In this document: positions 25,459 to 32,521 of the stretch, one piece after another
Position numbering within the stretch: the stretch's first letter is position 1
Layout of the letters: each line of letters begins with the position of its first letter
Assembly (NCBI RefSeq): GCF_001598235.1
Contig: NZ_BCYO01000001.1
Location: 434,001-498,000 of the forward strand
Direction of reading: 5' to 3'
Length of the DNA stretch: 64,000 bases
Source: Polaromonas jejuensis NBRC 106434
GTDB lineage: Bacteria; Pseudomonadota; Gammaproteobacteria; Burkholderiales; Burkholderiaceae_C
Made by a program: the position numbers and the translations under genes
The notes under the pieces: model-generated
Told to the model about the DNA's origin: nothing
Databases searched by the model: none
Seen by the model: the letters and a program-made list of their open reading frames with translations, nothing else

Positions 25459-26409
25459 TTATGGCTTTGCCACAGCGGCCGCCTGGCGGATGGCCTGCAG
25501 GGTGACGCGGCCCAGCAGGCTGCCATTTGTGTCCACAATGCCGGCCTCATCGGTGCCGGCATCCAGCATGGCGGACAGCGCATCGCGCAGGGGCGTAGCG
25601 GGTGCCAGGTGCGGTGCGCCGGCGGCGGGCATGCCGCCTTCCATGCAGGGGCCCGCTGTCAGCAGCGCCAGTCTCTTCAGCGAGCGATCGCCGCCCACAA
25701 AGGCTTCTACAAACGCGTCGGCCGGATGCGCCAGGATGCGCTCCGGCGTGTCGTACTGAACGACTTTTCCCGCACGCAGGATGGCGATGCGCGAACCCAT
25801 GCGGATGGCTTCGTCGATGTCGTGCGTGACAAACACAATGGTTTTGCCGAGCTCGCGCAGGATGCGCAAAAATTCGTCCTGCAGGCGGGTGCGGGTGATG
25901 GGGTCGATGGCGCCGAAGGGTTCGTCCATCAGCATCACCGGTGGGTCGGCGGCGAGTGCCCGTGCCACGCCCACGCGCTGCTTTTGCCCGCCAGAGAGTT
26001 CACGCGGAAAACGCTCCCGGTAGAGGCCAGGCTCCATGCCAACCAGCGCCAGCAGCTCATCCACGCGCCTGGCAATACGCGGCGCATCCCAGCCCAGCAT
26101 TTTCGGGACGGTGGCAACGTTCTCGCCAATCGTCATGTGGGGAAACAGCCCCACCTGCTGGATCACATAGCCAATGGAGCGGCGCAGCTCCACCGCGTCG
26201 ATTTGGGTCACATTCCGTCCGCCGACTTCGATGCGCCCCGAGTCGGGCTCTACCATGCGGTTGATCATTCGCATGGTGGTGGTCTTGCCGCAGCCCGAGG
26301 GGCCGATCAGCACGCAGATTTCGCCCGCATTGATGGTGAGCGACAGCCCGTCGACCGCGGACTGCGCGCTGGTTCCGAAGGTCTTGGTGAGGCGGTCGAG
26401 TGTAATCAT
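25459..26409 (-). CDS. quaternary-amine ABC transporter ATPase (OsmV/OpuCA-like)
   Basis: 316 residues. Walker A GPSGCGKTT, signature LSGGQKQRVGVARALA, Walker B MLMDEPFGAID and the switch His (VTHDIDEAIRMG) are complete. The C-terminus has the remains of a CBS-like regulatory region (DTNGSLLGRVTLQAI). Last gene of a seven-gene operon; it overlaps the permease upstream by 4 bp. In OsmVWXY and OpuC the substrate is glycine betaine, choline or carnitine, but the related EgtUV imports ergothioneine. The neighbouring lyase suggests a substrate of that kind here. Confidence 0.9.
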   Translation of the reverse strand: MITLDRLTKTFGTSAQSAVDGLSLTINAGEICVLIGPSGCGKTTTMRMINRMVEPDSGRIEVGGRNVTQIDAVELRRSIGYVIQQVGLFPHMTIGENVATVPKMLGWDAPRIARRVDELLALVGMEPGLYRERFPRELSGGQKQRVGVARALAADPPVMLMDEPFGAIDPITRTRLQDEFLRILRELGKTIVFVTHDIDEAIRMGSRIAILRAGKVVQYDTPERILAHPADAFVEAFVGGDRSLKRLALLTAGPCMEGGMPAAGAPHLAPATPLRDALSAMLDAGTDEAGIVDTNGSLLGRVTLQAIRQAAAVAKP

Positions 26410-27053
26410 GCAGTGCGAAGCCCTTGGGGAGTCATGCGGCGCTGCAAGGCGCCAAAAAGAAAGTCAGTGCCCAGCGCCAGCACAGAGACCGGGATGGCAC
26501 CGACCAGCAACTGCGGAATCGCCATCATCGCGATGCCCGCGGTGATGAAGTCACCCAGCCCGCCGCCACCAATGAATGCGGCAAGCACAGCACCGGAAAT
26601 CACCTGCACCGCAGCCGTGCGCAGGCCCGCAAAAATGACCGGCAAGGCCATCGGCAGTTCGACCTGCCGCAGGAGGGTTGACCGGGTCATGCCCATTCCG
26701 ACGGCGGCATCGACGACATCGGCGTCCACGCCGCGCATTCCGACAATGGTGTGGGTCACGATGGGCGGTAATGCGAGCAGCGTCAGGGCGAACAGTGCCG
26801 GTGCAAAGCCAGTCCCGAGAAGCGGCATGACCAGCGCCAGCACGGCCAGCGATGGCAGGGTGCGACCGACATTCGCCGCGTTCACCACGGCCAGCGACAG
26901 GCCGCCACGCCGGGCAACGGCAATGCCGGCGGGGATGCTGATCAGCGCGGCCAGCATCAGTGCCGACGCCGACAGTGCAATATGCACGCCCAGTGCCCGT
27001 GAAAACTGCGCCGGGTGGGCGAGGATATAGTGCCAGGCATCCAGGAGCATCAT
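26406..27053 (-). CDS. quaternary-amine ABC transporter permease (OsmW/OpuCB-like)
   Basis: 215 residues, about six transmembrane helices. The EAA-like segment DAAVGMGMTRSTLLRQVELPMALP matches the cytoplasmic ATPase-contact loop of betaine permeases. It sits between the second permease (12-bp gap) and the ATPase (4-bp overlap), so the importer has a heterodimeric membrane part, as in Osm and OpuC systems. Confidence 0.9.
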   Translation of the reverse strand: MMLLDAWHYILAHPAQFSRALGVHIALSASALMLAALISIPAGIAVARRGGLSLAVVNAANVGRTLPSLAVLALVMPLLGTGFAPALFALTLLALPPIVTHTIVGMRGVDADVVDAAVGMGMTRSTLLRQVELPMALPVIFAGLRTAAVQVISGAVLAAFIGGGGLGDFITAGIAMMAIPQLLVGAIPVSVLALGTDFLFGALQRRMTPQGLRTA

Positions 27054-27065
27054 GATTCCTGCGGT

Positions 27066-27689
27066 TCAGGCCGCAAGACGGCGTTTAAGCTGCCGCTCGA
27101 CCAGGGCGAGCAGCAGGTCGACGCTGACTGCCAGGGCGCAGGCAGTCAATGCACCCGCCCATATTTTTGCGGGATGGTCGCTGGCAATGCCGTTAAAGAT
27201 CAGCGTGCCCAGTCCGCCCGCATTGACATACGCGGCGACCACGGTCACGCTGATGACCGTGACGGCCGACACGCGCAGGCCGGCCACAATCAGGGGCAGG
27301 GCCAGCGGCAGCTCGATGCGCCGCATGATCTGGGCCGTATTCATGCCCATGCCGCGCGCGGCATCGATCACGTCGGCGGGAACCTCCCGAATGCCGGTCG
27401 CCACGCTGCGGATCAGGATCATCAATGAAAACGCCACCATGGTGATGATGGCGTTGGCACGGCCCAGCCCGACGACGGGAATCAAAAATGCGAGAAAGGC
27501 CAGCGTCGGGATGGTGTACAGAAACCCGGAGATGGTCATGACCGTGCCGTACAGCCGTTCACGCCGGGCGGCCACGATGCCAATGGCCAGCGACAGGGCG
27601 AAGGCAATCGTGAGCGCGGTCAGGGAGATGGCAATATGCTCCCACAATGCGTAGGCGATATCCGTCCAGTTGCGCAGGAACCATTTCAT
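27066..27689 (-). CDS. quaternary-amine ABC transporter permease (OsmY/OpuCD-like)
   Basis: 207 residues with about six helices. It has the same EAA-type loop as its partner (DAARGMGMNTAQIMRRIELPLALP) and a SGFLYTIPTLAFLAFL segment typical of the family. It begins 17 bp after the stop of the lyase gene, which ties transport to the lyase reaction. Confidence 0.9.
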   Translation of the reverse strand: MKWFLRNWTDIAYALWEHIAISLTALTIAFALSLAIGIVAARRERLYGTVMTISGFLYTIPTLAFLAFLIPVVGLGRANAIITMVAFSLMILIRSVATGIREVPADVIDAARGMGMNTAQIMRRIELPLALPLIVAGLRVSAVTVISVTVVAAYVNAGGLGTLIFNGIASDHPAKIWAGALTACALAVSVDLLLALVERQLKRRLAA

Positions 27690-27706: not shown

Positions 27707-29212
27707 TCAGGTTTGAGCGGGGTCGAACAGACCCGCAGCGACAGCGCGTTGAACGCGGTCGATGTCCGGACCCAGCGGGCGATCCTCGTCCAGCACGGGA
27801 ACCAGGTCGCGCACTTGCCTGTAGGTCCGGCGTGCGCCTTCACCCATGAGGGTTTCGTCAAGTTCACGCAGGTCCACCGCCTGGGCGGAAACCAGAAGCT
27901 CGATGGCAATGAGATAACGTACACGCTCTACCAGCTCGTCCAGTTTTTCTGCAACGCCCAGGGCCATGCACGCATGATCTTCCAGCCCCTCGGAGACAGG
28001 CATGTAGTCCAGCGAGCCGGGATTGGCGCGCAGCCGTATCTCGGCCCACAGGGCTGTCAGGGTCTTTTGCACCGTGGCAAAGCCGGAGTGGGCCGGCCCG
28101 TGGCGGGTCAATTGCAGGGGCAGGCCCGTGAGCGCGGGTGACATGAAGCGCTGGCAGCGGGCCACGGACATGCTGGCGCACTGTGCCAATGCGATTGCGC
28201 AGGCGTCCAGCGCCAGTGCCAATGCCGGCACGTGAAAGTTTCCATTGGAGAGCATGACGCCTTCGTCGGCCAGAACCAGAGGGCTGTCAGCGGCGCTGTT
28301 CAACTCCACCTCGACCTGCGTCCTGGCCAAGTCGACCATACCCTGGGCAGCGCCATGCACCTGAGCCACGACACGCATGGAAACCGGATCCTGCACGCGG
28401 CGGGCAGAACCCGGCGTCAGGAGCGCGCTGCCCTTGAGAAGCGCGCGCAACTGCTTCGCGACCTCCACCTGGCCCGTGGCGGGTCTTGCCGCGACCGCGC
28501 TGGGATGAAGCGGCGAGAGGTTGGCCCGAAAGCCCTCGTAGCCCAGCGCTACCGCTGCCAGCCAGGCATTCAGTGCAGCCGTCGCGTCGTGCAGCACCAG
28601 CGCGGCACGCGCCGTGGTGGCTGCGTTGGCGCTGATCAGTGCCAGTCCATCCTTGGCGCCCAGTTTCACGGGCTTGAGCCCGGCACGCTCAAGCGCGACG
28701 CTGCCACTCAGGACTTCGCCGCCAAATTCGGCTTCACCCTCGCCGAACAGTGGCAAGGCAAGGTGCGACAGCTGGGGCAGATCGGCCACGCCAATGGAAC
28801 CGAAGCGCGGCACCACCGGGTGCACCTGATGATTCAGCAGCGCGATGCAGGCATCCAGCACATCGGGTGACACCCCGGACCCGCCGCGTGCCATGCCGGC
28901 GACGCGGGCAAACTGCATGGCGCGAACGGAAGACCGCTCATAGGCCGGCCCGACGGCCACTGCTCGGGCGCGTACGGCCCTGCGCTGGTAGTCTTCCAGA
29001 TCACCTTCTGGCAGCACCGCACCGGTGTTGGCACCCAGCGCGGAGTTGAGGCCATAAATGGGCAGGCCGGATGTAGACAAACGCATGACTACGTCACGCG
29101 CCGCAACGACACGCGCACGCGCGCCAGCTGCCAGCAAGACGGACTCACCCGTGCGCGCCACACGCACCAGATCGTCGATTCCCACCCACTTTTCGCCGAC
29201 CTCAATTGTCAT
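27707..29212 (-). CDS. MIO-less histidine ammonia-lyase homologue, candidate ergothionase
   Basis: 501 residues, full length for the HAL/PAL superfamily: IYGLNSALGANTGA with Tyr53, ELNSAADSPLV, SNGNFHVPALALALD, and SEGLEDHACMALGVAEKLDELV. The MIO-forming Ala-Ser-Gly is absent: where HAL reads GSVGASGDLAPL this protein has GSIGVADLPQL (residues 138-148), one residue shorter, and the NGTQ motif becomes SANA. It therefore cannot build the MIO electrophile. Ergothionase, which eliminates trimethylamine from ergothioneine to give thiourocanate, is known to be a MIO-free relative. The flanking betaine importer fits. The substrate is inference; other amino-acid betaines are possible. Confidence 0.75.
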   Translation of the reverse strand: MTIEVGEKWVGIDDLVRVARTGESVLLAAGARARVVAARDVVMRLSTSGLPIYGLNSALGANTGAVLPEGDLEDYQRRAVRARAVAVGPAYERSSVRAMQFARVAGMARGGSGVSPDVLDACIALLNHQVHPVVPRFGSIGVADLPQLSHLALPLFGEGEAEFGGEVLSGSVALERAGLKPVKLGAKDGLALISANAATTARAALVLHDATAALNAWLAAVALGYEGFRANLSPLHPSAVAARPATGQVEVAKQLRALLKGSALLTPGSARRVQDPVSMRVVAQVHGAAQGMVDLARTQVEVELNSAADSPLVLADEGVMLSNGNFHVPALALALDACAIALAQCASMSVARCQRFMSPALTGLPLQLTRHGPAHSGFATVQKTLTALWAEIRLRANPGSLDYMPVSEGLEDHACMALGVAEKLDELVERVRYLIAIELLVSAQAVDLRELDETLMGEGARRTYRQVRDLVPVLDEDRPLGPDIDRVQRAVAAGLFDPAQT

Positions 29213-29257: not shown

Positions 29258-30139
29258 CTACTTGACGAGACCCTTGGCCTTGAGAAAGTCGCGTGCCACC
29301 TCTTTGGGTTCCAGCTTCTCCCCGTCGACCTGGTAGTTCATCTGTGCCATCGTGGCTTCGTCGAGCAAGGCGCTGACGCGGTTCAGGACGTCACCAATTT
29401 TCGGGTTGGCTTCCAGTGTTTCCCGGCGAATCACAGGCACGACGAAGTACGGGGGCCACAGGCTTTTGTCATCCCGCAGCCGCTTCAGTTTCATGGCACT
29501 GATCATGCCGTCCGTGGAGTAACCGTTGACCACCTGGATCTGGTCGTTCTTGAGTGCCTGATAACGCAGGCCAATGGCCATCTGCAAGTCTTCACCAAAC
29601 ACCATGTTGTACTTGGCCTTCAGGCCGGGCAGTCCGTCCTTGCGATCGCGAAATTCGGGGCCGGCGCCTATCTTCAGGTCTTTGGCGACCCTGGCCAGAT
29701 CCGACAGGGTTTCCAGCTTGTACTTCTGCGCCGTATCGCTGCGGACCACCATGACGTAACCGTTGTTGAGCTTGGACTGGTTCAGCACCACAAACCCCAT
29801 CTTGGCGTAGGCCTCTTTCACCTTGTCATAGACGGCCTTGGCGTCCGTCATGGGTTCCTGCTTCAGCACGGCAAGCAGCATGGTACCGGTGTACTCGGGG
29901 TAGAAGTCGATCTGCTTTTCTTCCATGGCTTTCTGCGCAATCAGCGTGCCGCCGAGGTTGAGCTTTTTCTCGGTCTTGATGCCGGCCGCCTCCAGAGACT
30001 GGGCGTAAATTTCCGCCAGTACAAACTGCTCGGTGAAGTTTTTGGAGCCCACGCGAACCGCCTGCTGGGCCTGAGAGGCAAGCGGCACCACGGCGGCAAG
30101 CGCCAATGCAGAAAAGGCCAAAAGTTTGCGAATGGTCAC
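29258..30139 (-). CDS. quaternary-amine ABC transporter substrate-binding protein (OsmX/OpuCC-like)
   Basis: 293 residues. From the GTG at 30139 the protein begins with a good signal peptide (TIRKLLAFSALALAAVV, cleavage after SQA), with GGAGAT at the right distance. The VRVGSKNFTEQFVLAEIY opening is the family signature, followed by DFYPEYTGTML. The in-frame ATG at 30235 would put a hydrophilic leader before the signal and is rejected. It should bind the substrate in the periplasm and deliver it to the two permeases encoded 3' of the lyase gene. Confidence 0.88.
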   Translation of the reverse strand: MTIRKLLAFSALALAAVVPLASQAQQAVRVGSKNFTEQFVLAEIYAQSLEAAGIKTEKKLNLGGTLIAQKAMEEKQIDFYPEYTGTMLLAVLKQEPMTDAKAVYDKVKEAYAKMGFVVLNQSKLNNGYVMVVRSDTAQKYKLETLSDLARVAKDLKIGAGPEFRDRKDGLPGLKAKYNMVFGEDLQMAIGLRYQALKNDQIQVVNGYSTDGMISAMKLKRLRDDKSLWPPYFVVPVIRRETLEANPKIGDVLNRVSALLDEATMAQMNYQVDGEKLEPKEVARDFLKAKGLVK

Positions 30140-30234: not shown

Positions 30235-31080
30235 TCAGAGCTCCTCGAAAGGCGTAGCGGCCGCGGCAGCCATGGCCGCCAGGGGCCGGTAGTCGGCGGG
30301 ATCGGGGATCGCAAAGCCTGCAAGCAACAAACGTTCCATGACCGGCGCCAGTTCCGGCGCCGCGGCCGTTGCCAGCAGGGCCTCGCGCAGCCGCGCGAGC
30401 TCGTCTTTATGCAGGGTGGCAGTTGCCACCAGCGGGGGGATGGGAAGTGCAGGGGTGCTCGCGATGATGCGCACCTGGGCGGCAAAGCCCGGTTCATGGC
30501 GCCGCAGCAGATCGTGGTAATAGCTGTCCAGCGGACCCACGTCGATGCGGCCCGTGGCCAGCGCCTCGATCACGCCGCGTGCATGGATCAGGTCGCCGAC
30601 TGCCTCACGGTAAAGCCGTGGTCGCGCAGCCGTGCGGTAACTTTCAAGATGACGGCGCAGCGCAACGCCGCCCGACATGGAATCGGCCAGCGTGTAGCCG
30701 ACCACGCCGCCAAAAGTATCTTCCAGTGTGCGGTAAGGCGCGTCGGCGCGTACCACGATGTCGGTGAAGTACACCGGTTTTCCGCCGTAGCGGGCCGGCG
30801 ACGGCAGCGGCGCGGCGACCAGGGTGGGCGGCCTTGCCTCATTGATCCGCTGCGCAAAGGGCAGGCCGCACATCATGGCCAGGCCCAGGTCATTGCGCGC
30901 CCACAGCGCCGACAGGGGCGCCGGCGCATCGTAGTCGATCACGTTCCATGGCAGGCCTGCGCGCGCCAGCGCCCAGGCGAGCAGCTGTTTCCAGTCGGCC
31001 TTGACCGACGGAGTCGCCGAGTACATGCGGGCGTTGGCAACCGGCTGGGCGCTTTCCTCGGAAGGCGGCATGACATTCAT
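30235..31080 (-). CDS. PhnD-like binding protein without signal peptide
   Basis: 281 residues, resembling phosphate/phosphonate-type periplasmic binding proteins (PhnD family): WARNDLGLAMMCGLPFA, VYFTDIVVRADAPYRTLEDTFGG, and AVGDLIHARGVIEALATGRIDVGPLDSYY. There is no signal peptide: the N-terminus is MNVMPPSEESAQPVANARMY, with no hydrophobic core. It may act in the cytoplasm as a sensor or binding protein, or the true start may be elsewhere. It begins 15 bp after the ornithine-cyclodeaminase-like gene. The function is unknown. Confidence 0.72.
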   Translation of the reverse strand: MNVMPPSEESAQPVANARMYSATPSVKADWKQLLAWALARAGLPWNVIDYDAPAPLSALWARNDLGLAMMCGLPFAQRINEARPPTLVAAPLPSPARYGGKPVYFTDIVVRADAPYRTLEDTFGGVVGYTLADSMSGGVALRRHLESYRTAARPRLYREAVGDLIHARGVIEALATGRIDVGPLDSYYHDLLRRHEPGFAAQVRIIASTPALPIPPLVATATLHKDELARLREALLATAAAPELAPVMERLLLAGFAIPDPADYRPLAAMAAAAATPFEEL

Positions 31081-31095: not shown

Positions 31096-32109
31096 TCAAC
31101 GGAAGCGCAACTGCTGTCCAAGATTCATGCGTTTGGCTTTCTCCAGCATGAAGGCACCCAATGCAATGTCCGACAGCGAGAGGCCGCGGTGCCAGAACAG
31201 GTTGGTTTCGTCATCACTCTGGCGGCCTGGCTTGAGACCCGCGACGATCTGACCGAGCTCGGCATACAGCGTTTTCTCTGACAGTTTGCCGGCGTCCACA
31301 TGAGCGCGCAGGGCGCCGAAAGGCCCAGCCTTGGCCTGGCCCCAGTCGTCCATGACCATTTTGTCCATGATGTCGGTGAGCGACAGCTCGACCGCGCTCA
31401 TGGTGCCGTAGGGAATGACGCAGGCGCCTTTTTTGATCCATTCGGTCTTGAGCAGGGGTTCGGGCTTTTCGAGCCGCGAAGCCTCGACCACGATGTCGGC
31501 GCCGCGCACGCACGATTCCCAGTCATCGGTGACCGTGATTTTTTTGCCCAGGTCTTTTTCAAGCCTGGCGGCAAAGGCGTTGCGGCTTTCGGGCCGGCGA
31601 GAGTGCACGCGAATCTCGTCGAAGTCGTAGATCGAGTCGAGCAGGCGAACATTCCAGTAAGACGTGCCGCGCGCACCGATGTGGCCCAGCACCCTGGAAT
31701 CTTTTCGCGCCAGGTATTTCGCCCCCAGGGCGGTGATCGCGCCTGTGCGCATGTCGGTGATGTCCGAGGCGTCGATGATGGCGATGGGTGAGCCGTTCTT
31801 CGGATTGAACAGGTTGAGAACAGCCAGCTCGGACGGCAGGCCGATCTCATAGTTGCGGTAGAAGTCACCCACCACCTTCACGCCCGCCAGGCCCAGCGGG
31901 CGGATGTAGCCGCGCAGCACATTGAAGTGGCCCGGGTAATCCTTTTCCGGCACCAGGTGCATGCGCGGCTCGATCGTGGTCTGCTGGTTGCCTTGCGCAT
32001 GCAGCGCCTGCTCCACCGCGGCAATGATTTCCGCGTTGGTGAGGGCCAGCGCCTGAACGTCGGGATGGTTCAGGTAGGTCAGGTAGATTTCGGATGCATC
32101 GTCAGACAT
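31096..32109 (-). CDS. ornithine cyclodeaminase/mu-crystallin family protein
   Basis: 337 residues. IEPRMHLVPE and LAGVKVVGDF lie in the substrate half, and DMRTGAITALGAKYLARKDS followed by GHIGARGTS forms the Rossmann nucleotide-binding part. Family members catalyse NAD-dependent cyclisation or deamination of amino acids or reduce cyclic imines. First gene of the seven-gene operon; its substrate cannot be read from sequence. A role in reworking a product of the MIO-less lyase or a related amine is conceivable. Confidence 0.88.
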   Translation of the reverse strand: MSDDASEIYLTYLNHPDVQALALTNAEIIAAVEQALHAQGNQQTTIEPRMHLVPEKDYPGHFNVLRGYIRPLGLAGVKVVGDFYRNYEIGLPSELAVLNLFNPKNGSPIAIIDASDITDMRTGAITALGAKYLARKDSRVLGHIGARGTSYWNVRLLDSIYDFDEIRVHSRRPESRNAFAARLEKDLGKKITVTDDWESCVRGADIVVEASRLEKPEPLLKTEWIKKGACVIPYGTMSAVELSLTDIMDKMVMDDWGQAKAGPFGALRAHVDAGKLSEKTLYAELGQIVAGLKPGRQSDDETNLFWHRGLSLSDIALGAFMLEKAKRMNLGQQLRFR

Positions 32110-32446: not shown

Positions 32447-32521
32447 TGGTACCACCAACAGGAATCGAACCTGTATCTAGCGCTTAGGAGGCACTCGTTC
32501 TATCCATTGAACTATGGCGGC
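32447..32521 (-). tRNA. tRNA-Arg (anticodon CCT)
   Basis: The minus strand begins GCCGCCATAGTTCAATGG, has an anticodon loop with CCT flanked by T and AA, a GGTTCGATTCC T-loop, and ends GGTGGTA-CCA with the CCA encoded. The acceptor arms (GCCGCCA with TGGTGGT) pair over 7 bp with two G-U pairs. It reads the rare AGG codon. Its 3' end faces the seven-gene operon. Confidence 0.93.

Follow-up and report, generated by a model that had tools for sequence, protein, structure and literature searches.

Why does an operon with an importer of its own carry a gene for a PhnD-like binding protein that has no signal peptide? We analysed this locus in Polaromonas jejuensis NBRC 106434, within a 64,000-nucleotide stretch of contig NZ_BCYO01000001.1 (positions 434,001 to 498,000), hereafter the window. 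The protein, called PBP below, is a genuine, conserved but puzzling form of a known fold that lacks a leader.

The operon in the window

The operon is real and all of its genes lie on the minus strand. The features are as follows.

31096..32109, minus strand: ornithine cyclodeaminase/mu-crystallin family gene (OCD), the usual partner of PBP (PF02423, 177.2 bits)
31096..31098, minus strand: in-frame TGA, 5 codons upstream of the PBP ATG, which doubles as the OCD stop codon
30235..31080, minus strand: leaderless PhnD/AioX-fold protein (PBP), 281 aa
29258..30139, minus strand: OsmX-type OpuAC binding protein with its own leader (PF04069, 231.7 bits; ProX-type and EgtUC matches)
27707..29212, minus strand: histidine-lyase homologue lacking the MIO triad, with GSIGVADLPQLSH in place of GSVGASGDLAPLAH (ergothionase 6s7j is the nearest solved structure)
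27066..27689, minus strand: ABC permease A (PF00528)
26406..27053, minus strand: ABC permease B (PF00528)
25459..26409, minus strand: ProV-type ABC ATPase (TIGR01186, 327.6 bits, cut-off 326.6)

The true start of OsmX is likely the GTG at 30139 (MTIRKLLAFSALALAAVVPLASQAQQ), which gives a normal leader, and the listed ATG at 30235 is likely too early. OsmX is a neighbouring open reading frame with its own leader, which agrees with the original prediction that PBP is separate from the normal OsmX-type binding protein next door. A tRNA-Arg gene (CCT) lies on the same strand at 32447-32521, about 340 bases upstream of the operon, and hutH and hutU of this genome are located elsewhere, on contig C6. 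Both points might reflect a transfer of the operon in one piece.

Absence of an export leader

Leaders were detected by a Kyte-Doolittle hydrophobicity scan (mean over 10 residues) and not by SignalP. The highest value in the first 60 residues of PBP is 1.28. On the same measure, the neighbouring OsmX reaches 2.54, three further window proteins that are presumably exported reach 2.09-2.45, and the cytosolic-type OCD 1.47. Only A-Q-S-R-Y is encoded between the PBP ATG and the upstream in-frame TGA, and AGGAG about 9 nt before the ATG is a good ribosome site. Because the TGA closes the frame and the ribosome site is good, no upstream start can add a leader to PBP; such a start, adding a real signal peptide, had been named beforehand as evidence that would speak against the claim. 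A leader was also looked for in the two other reading frames across the PBP start, and none was found.

Relatives were scanned for a signal peptide as well, as the original prediction had suggested. Read at the DNA level, with the frame followed up to residue 25, none of 27 proteins (the window, 18 named loci and 8 plasmid relatives, including Alphaproteobacteria and a Rhodococcus plasmid) has a clear leader (at least 2.0) from any in-frame start; the top values are 1.92 and 1.89. Starts in the relatives are approximate because the gene caller was home-made and based on codon scores. AioX-like homologues, scanned over the whole open frame upstream of the match, reach at least 2.0 in 26 of 27 cases, and the remaining one (L021) reaches 1.75. 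The ranges of leader-bearing and leaderless proteins therefore touch but hardly mix (1.75 vs 1.89 and 1.92). A mis-called PBP start is ruled out by the upstream TGA and by the 27 proteins without a clear leader from any in-frame start. The claim that PBP has no signal peptide thus holds, and the missing leader suggests a cytosolic location.

Fold, conservation and selection

PBP matches Pfam PF12974 with 88.4 bits (cut-off 27), far above chance, and its AlphaFold (AF2) model (pLDDT 89.7, pTM 0.87) has the two-lobed fold, so that both score and fold place it in this Phosphonate-bd superfamily. The solved structures nearest to the model in Foldseek are AioX (1.4e-19), ArrX and PhnD. The PhnD-like binding-protein fold that had been proposed from the sequence was thereby recovered, with AioX as its closest structure. 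An alignment of 20 rows shows no variation at Y20, C71-G72, Y104, S134-x-S136-G137 or D185. AioX has the same CG and SxSG positions, and positions of this type presumably hold small anions. A domain search of PBP found no DNA-binding or kinase domain.

The dN/dS of the window PBP against 14 orthologues is 0.13-0.32, and that of the neighbouring OCD is 0.03-0.13. These ratios indicate that PBP is under purifying selection, yet evolves faster than OCD. Decay of a transporter gene is contradicted by the same values.

The leaderless clade

In a midpoint-rooted tree of 58 rows, the leaderless proteins form one clade of 29 rows (support 100/98), consisting of a window group of 18 rows and a sister group of 11 rows whose proteins begin like 'SLPMYD'. 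The window protein falls within this strongly supported grouping. The 27 AioX-like homologues, of which 26 have a leader, fall outside this clade. Among the clade rows scanned over the whole open frame upstream of the match, hydrophobicity is 1.65 at most; outside the clade, the N-terminus is unclear in two rows (L013, 2.13; L072, 1.98). The tree does not include L010, which is a broken copy, L060 and L067, whose stretches were too short, or L014 and L076-L081, which are fragments or very distant. Because the root was placed at the midpoint, the leader may have been lost once or more often.

These data indicate that PBP is a member of a large leaderless clade and no oddity of this genome; a wrongly called start and the decay of a binding protein both fail as accounts of it. 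The leaderless proteins can be regarded as an old branch of the PhnD/AioX superfamily.

Pairing of PBP with OCD

OCD lies directly upstream of PBP in 17 of the 19 named loci. One of the two exceptions (L038) begins at a contig edge and the other (L048) has a lyase upstream with a 4-base overlap; one of the 17 (L047) carries frameshifted copies of many genes. On plasmids, PBP lies directly behind OCD in 55 of the 60 listed OCD records out of 84, the counts covering those 60. Forty-four of the 55 were recognized by a first comparison, 10 with a Rhizobium PBP as query (three with the first 46 residues unmatched and one in two pieces), and NC_007949 (G043:C2) completes the number. Genes that have kept their order through joint inheritance do not count as separate lines of evidence, and most of the plasmid records are close Rhizobium relatives. 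Sinorhizobium B11 and R. acidisoli have the order OCD, MIO-less lyase and a leaderless PBP that looks like the sister group, and in Azospirillum B510 PBP is beside the lyase, with OCD about 5.5 kb away. No PBP was found in the stretches read around OCD of Rhizobium sp. CC-CFT758 and Paraburkholderia sp. PGU19.

Co-occurrence gives a similar picture. A close OCD (E<=1e-80) is found in 11 of 199 relatives, and PBP (at least 68% identity) in the same 11 genomes. Ten of the 11 also have the lyase (E<=1e-90). G043 contains another, diverged pair (OCD 73%, PBP 34%), whose genes are likewise adjacent; G170 has a 51% PBP without a close OCD. Taken together, the gene orders indicate that the steady genetic partner of PBP is an OCD-family gene and not a transporter, and we infer a physical or functional partnership between the two products.

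A Rhodococcus qingshengii plasmid (L191, 8186-9801) carries an OCD 87% and a PBP 72% identical to those of the window, with an IS21 gene and hutH nearby. Its OCD stretch (residues 74-337), outside the listed records, lies directly before PBP. This finding points to transfer across phyla.

hut operons and the lyase without MIO

The order hutU-OCD-PBP within a run of hut genes occurs in 16 of the 19 named loci. In the window and on Rhizobium plasmids, the OCD-PBP pair is found with an OpuA-type importer and a lyase annotated as hutH. For example, pRL12 of R. johnstonii 3841 carries hutC, the MIO-less lyase, an OpuAC-type binding protein, OCD, leaderless PBP, two permeases and an ATPase. The MIO group is formed by an Ala-Ser-Gly triad. 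At this site, the hutH proteins of the named loci have GSVGASGDLAPLAH (n=16), whereas the MIO-less lyases of the window and of six named loci read GSIGVADLPQLSH, that of R. johnstonii 3841 reads GSIGAADLAPLAH and those of three further plasmid operons read GSIGAGDLVLLS; the two lyases of L048 were outside the reach of the search pattern for the MIO site. The window lyase lacks the triad, as expected of an ergothionase, and its best solved relative is ergothionase (E 5e-82).

The MIO-less lyase is absent from all eight Variovorax stretches, where the OCD-PBP pair sits among hut genes, so the pair is not tied to the betaine importer. Since the lyase is closest to ergothionase and hutH/hutU lie elsewhere in the genome, the window operon probably serves a histidine-like betaine, and ergothioneine is a candidate substrate. 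A bacterial pathway for ergothioneine or histidine betaine could be studied conveniently in this candidate operon. According to PMC13405746, few ergothionases are firmly known. PMC6421345 reports that the quaternary-amine importer RHLc6320 of R. leguminosarum is raised about 160-fold in bean bacteroids.

A variant operon in L198, L200 and L201 contains two LLM-class flavin-dependent oxidoreductases together with the importer, OCD and the MIO-less lyase. In two of the three, the plasmid operons L200 and L201, the last gene encodes a PBP of the sister group.

The sister group

With a sister-group profile, 99 of 397 Pseudomonadota genomes give a match at 1e-12; leader-bearing homologues and the window group are included in this set. 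Sister-group PhnD-like genes often adjoin a gene for a fatty-acid (FA)-desaturase-type membrane enzyme (L130 5030-5983, L045 9358-10251, L048 18158-19114 and others). An enzyme of this type (PF00487) was found within the 15-kb stretch at 18 of 40 sister-group loci (40 of the 44 best matches of that profile) vs 0 of 20 control stretches, and at most 1.5 kb away in 16 of 39 sister-group loci vs 0 of 27 leader-bearing homologues; these comparisons are not independent, as most of the 40 stretches come from the genomes that also supplied 30 of the 39 short loci. For one of these enzymes the best NCBIfam match is arginine hydroxylase, at 36.7 vs a cut-off of 380 bits. The same desaturase family also follows PBP in two hut runs (L045, L049) and stands beside PBP in Terrarubrum.

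In another set of genomes, the sister-group gene is close behind a TerB-family gene (L152 6092-6529 and others). TerB was found in 13 of the 40 stretches vs 0 of 20 controls; the TerB query came from one of the 40 loci, and the desaturase queries from outside them.

OCD or hutU was found in 0 of 40 sister-group loci and hutH in 1 of 40, and a general hut link of the sister group is unsupported by these counts. Single hut-linked cases are L083, in which PBP lies just before hutU, and the plasmid operons L200 and L201. The two sister-group proteins in these lyase-OCD-importer operons tie both groups to one kind of pathway, in these cases at least.

Possible role of PBP

PBP probably has some job inside the cell in nutrient breakdown and not in import, because it has no export signal and its relatives keep the same enzyme genes adjacent. 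The suggestion that a binding domain was put to another use than import is supported. The reading that we prefer, and to which we give about an even chance, is that PBP is a cytosolic ligand-binding partner of OCD in the breakdown of histidine or a histidine-like betaine. The importer, served by OsmX and not by the leaderless PBP, would take in a histidine-like betaine (ergothioneine, histidine betaine or similar), and trimethylamine would be released from it by the MIO-less lyase. PBP and the NAD(P)-dependent enzyme of the OCD family would then act together on a later or side intermediate, PBP holding an anionic (carboxylate) ligand for the enzyme or reporting the ligand to it. Holding or reporting an intermediate for OCD would be its most likely task because this cytosolic binder nearly always travels with the enzyme. 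We infer both the type of substrate and the PBP ligand.

It can be asked whether PBP is itself an enzyme. Thi5 and MqnA/MqnD are enzymes with a PBP fold, and Thi5 is among the Foldseek matches (4h6d_B, E 2.5e-7, TM 0.56). The missing leader, the pairing with enzymes (OCD here, often the FA-desaturase type in the sister group) and the conserved Cys-Gly, Tyr and Asp are consistent with catalysis. However, the nearest structures (AioX, ArrX, PhnD) are plain binding proteins and no catalytic motif was identified; an enzymatic role is unlikely. PBP could also be a cytosolic ligand sensor that tunes HutC-controlled genes, as the overlap of the PBP gene with hutC by one base in Paracoccus saliphilus and the position of hutC at the head of the same gene run on Rhizobium plasmids might suggest. 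We consider this rather doubtful: PBP has no effector domain, hutC is missing from the window operon, and a search of the 64-kb window, including upstream of OCD, for the HutC operator core TGTATATACA with up to one mismatch found no match. Furthermore, HutC itself is described as a known repressor of hut genes in PMC12977541.

Two further readings start from a role in transport. On Rhizobium plasmids the PBP gene lies between OCD and the permeases, as would fit a binding protein that still serves the importer and is exported by an unknown route. But these operons and the window already have an OsmX-related OpuAC-type binding protein (51% identical in L195) whose N-termini look like leaders by eye (hydrophobicity was measured for OsmX only), and the OCD-PBP pair also occurs in hut operons without that importer, which makes such export very improbable. 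Family name and fold would likewise suit a binding protein that once served an importer and is decaying after the loss of its leader; given dN/dS of 0.13-0.32, a leader absent in 27 of 27 proteins and a single clade on the midpoint-rooted tree, we regard the chance of this as close to negligible.

Beyond the preferred partnership with OCD, the leaderless PhnD branch could tentatively be seen as a new class of cytoplasmic working parts, namely substrate-handling or catalytic subunits in betaine and amino-acid breakdown with lineage-specific enzyme pairing. The partners within such a class would perhaps be the OCD-family dehydrogenase and the MIO-less lyase here, and FA-desaturase-type enzymes or TerB in much of the sister group.

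Comparison with known systems

The best sequence and fold matches of PBP are the arsenite-sensing AioX (PDB 8ed5/6esk) and ArrX (profile E 5.3e-29; Foldseek 1.4e-19). An AioX sensor is defined by a leader and a partner histidine kinase. Whereas 26 of 27 AioX-like homologues have a leader, PBP has none, and its operon consists of OCD, OpuAC, lyase, permeases and ATPase with no kinase gene; by this definition, PBP is not an AioX sensor. PhnD and PtxB have the PF12974 fold in common with PBP. However, PBP scores 35.2 bits against a cut-off of 261.1 for PhnD (TIGR03431) and 30.7 against 112.05 for TIGR01098. The PhnD importer protein is exported and PBP lacks an export leader, and the ABC genes of the operon are OpuA-type, so PBP falls outside PhnD proper. 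PMC9602780 notes that Pfam binding-protein models also catch cytosolic proteins (about 1% of retrieved proteins in one survey).

In the Comamonadaceae hut operon (HutC regulon, PMC5343134), the hut run contains OCD and leaderless PBP in 16 of 19 named loci; the window PBP, by contrast, lies apart from hutH and hutU, which are on contig C6. The available portions of that account cover the core hut enzymes, HutD and transporters and do not mention PBP. In alignment, the MIO triad is absent from the ergothionase of T. denticola (6s7j) as it is from the window lyase, and ergothionase is described as lacking MIO in PMC13405746. OsmX resembles the EgtU ergothioneine importer in matching EgtUC at E 2e-44, but it scores higher with engineered sensor proteins and ProX.

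In the open papers searched, no account of a leaderless PBP or an OCD-PBP pair was found. Database records label such proteins as 'PhnD/SsuA/transferrin family' or 'phosphate/phosphite/phosphonate' binding proteins, names that suggest an importer part, which the sequence does not support. An entire clade appears to function within the cell, as part of gene runs that are widely carried; R. johnstonii 3841, on which much has been published, has one of these runs on a plasmid.
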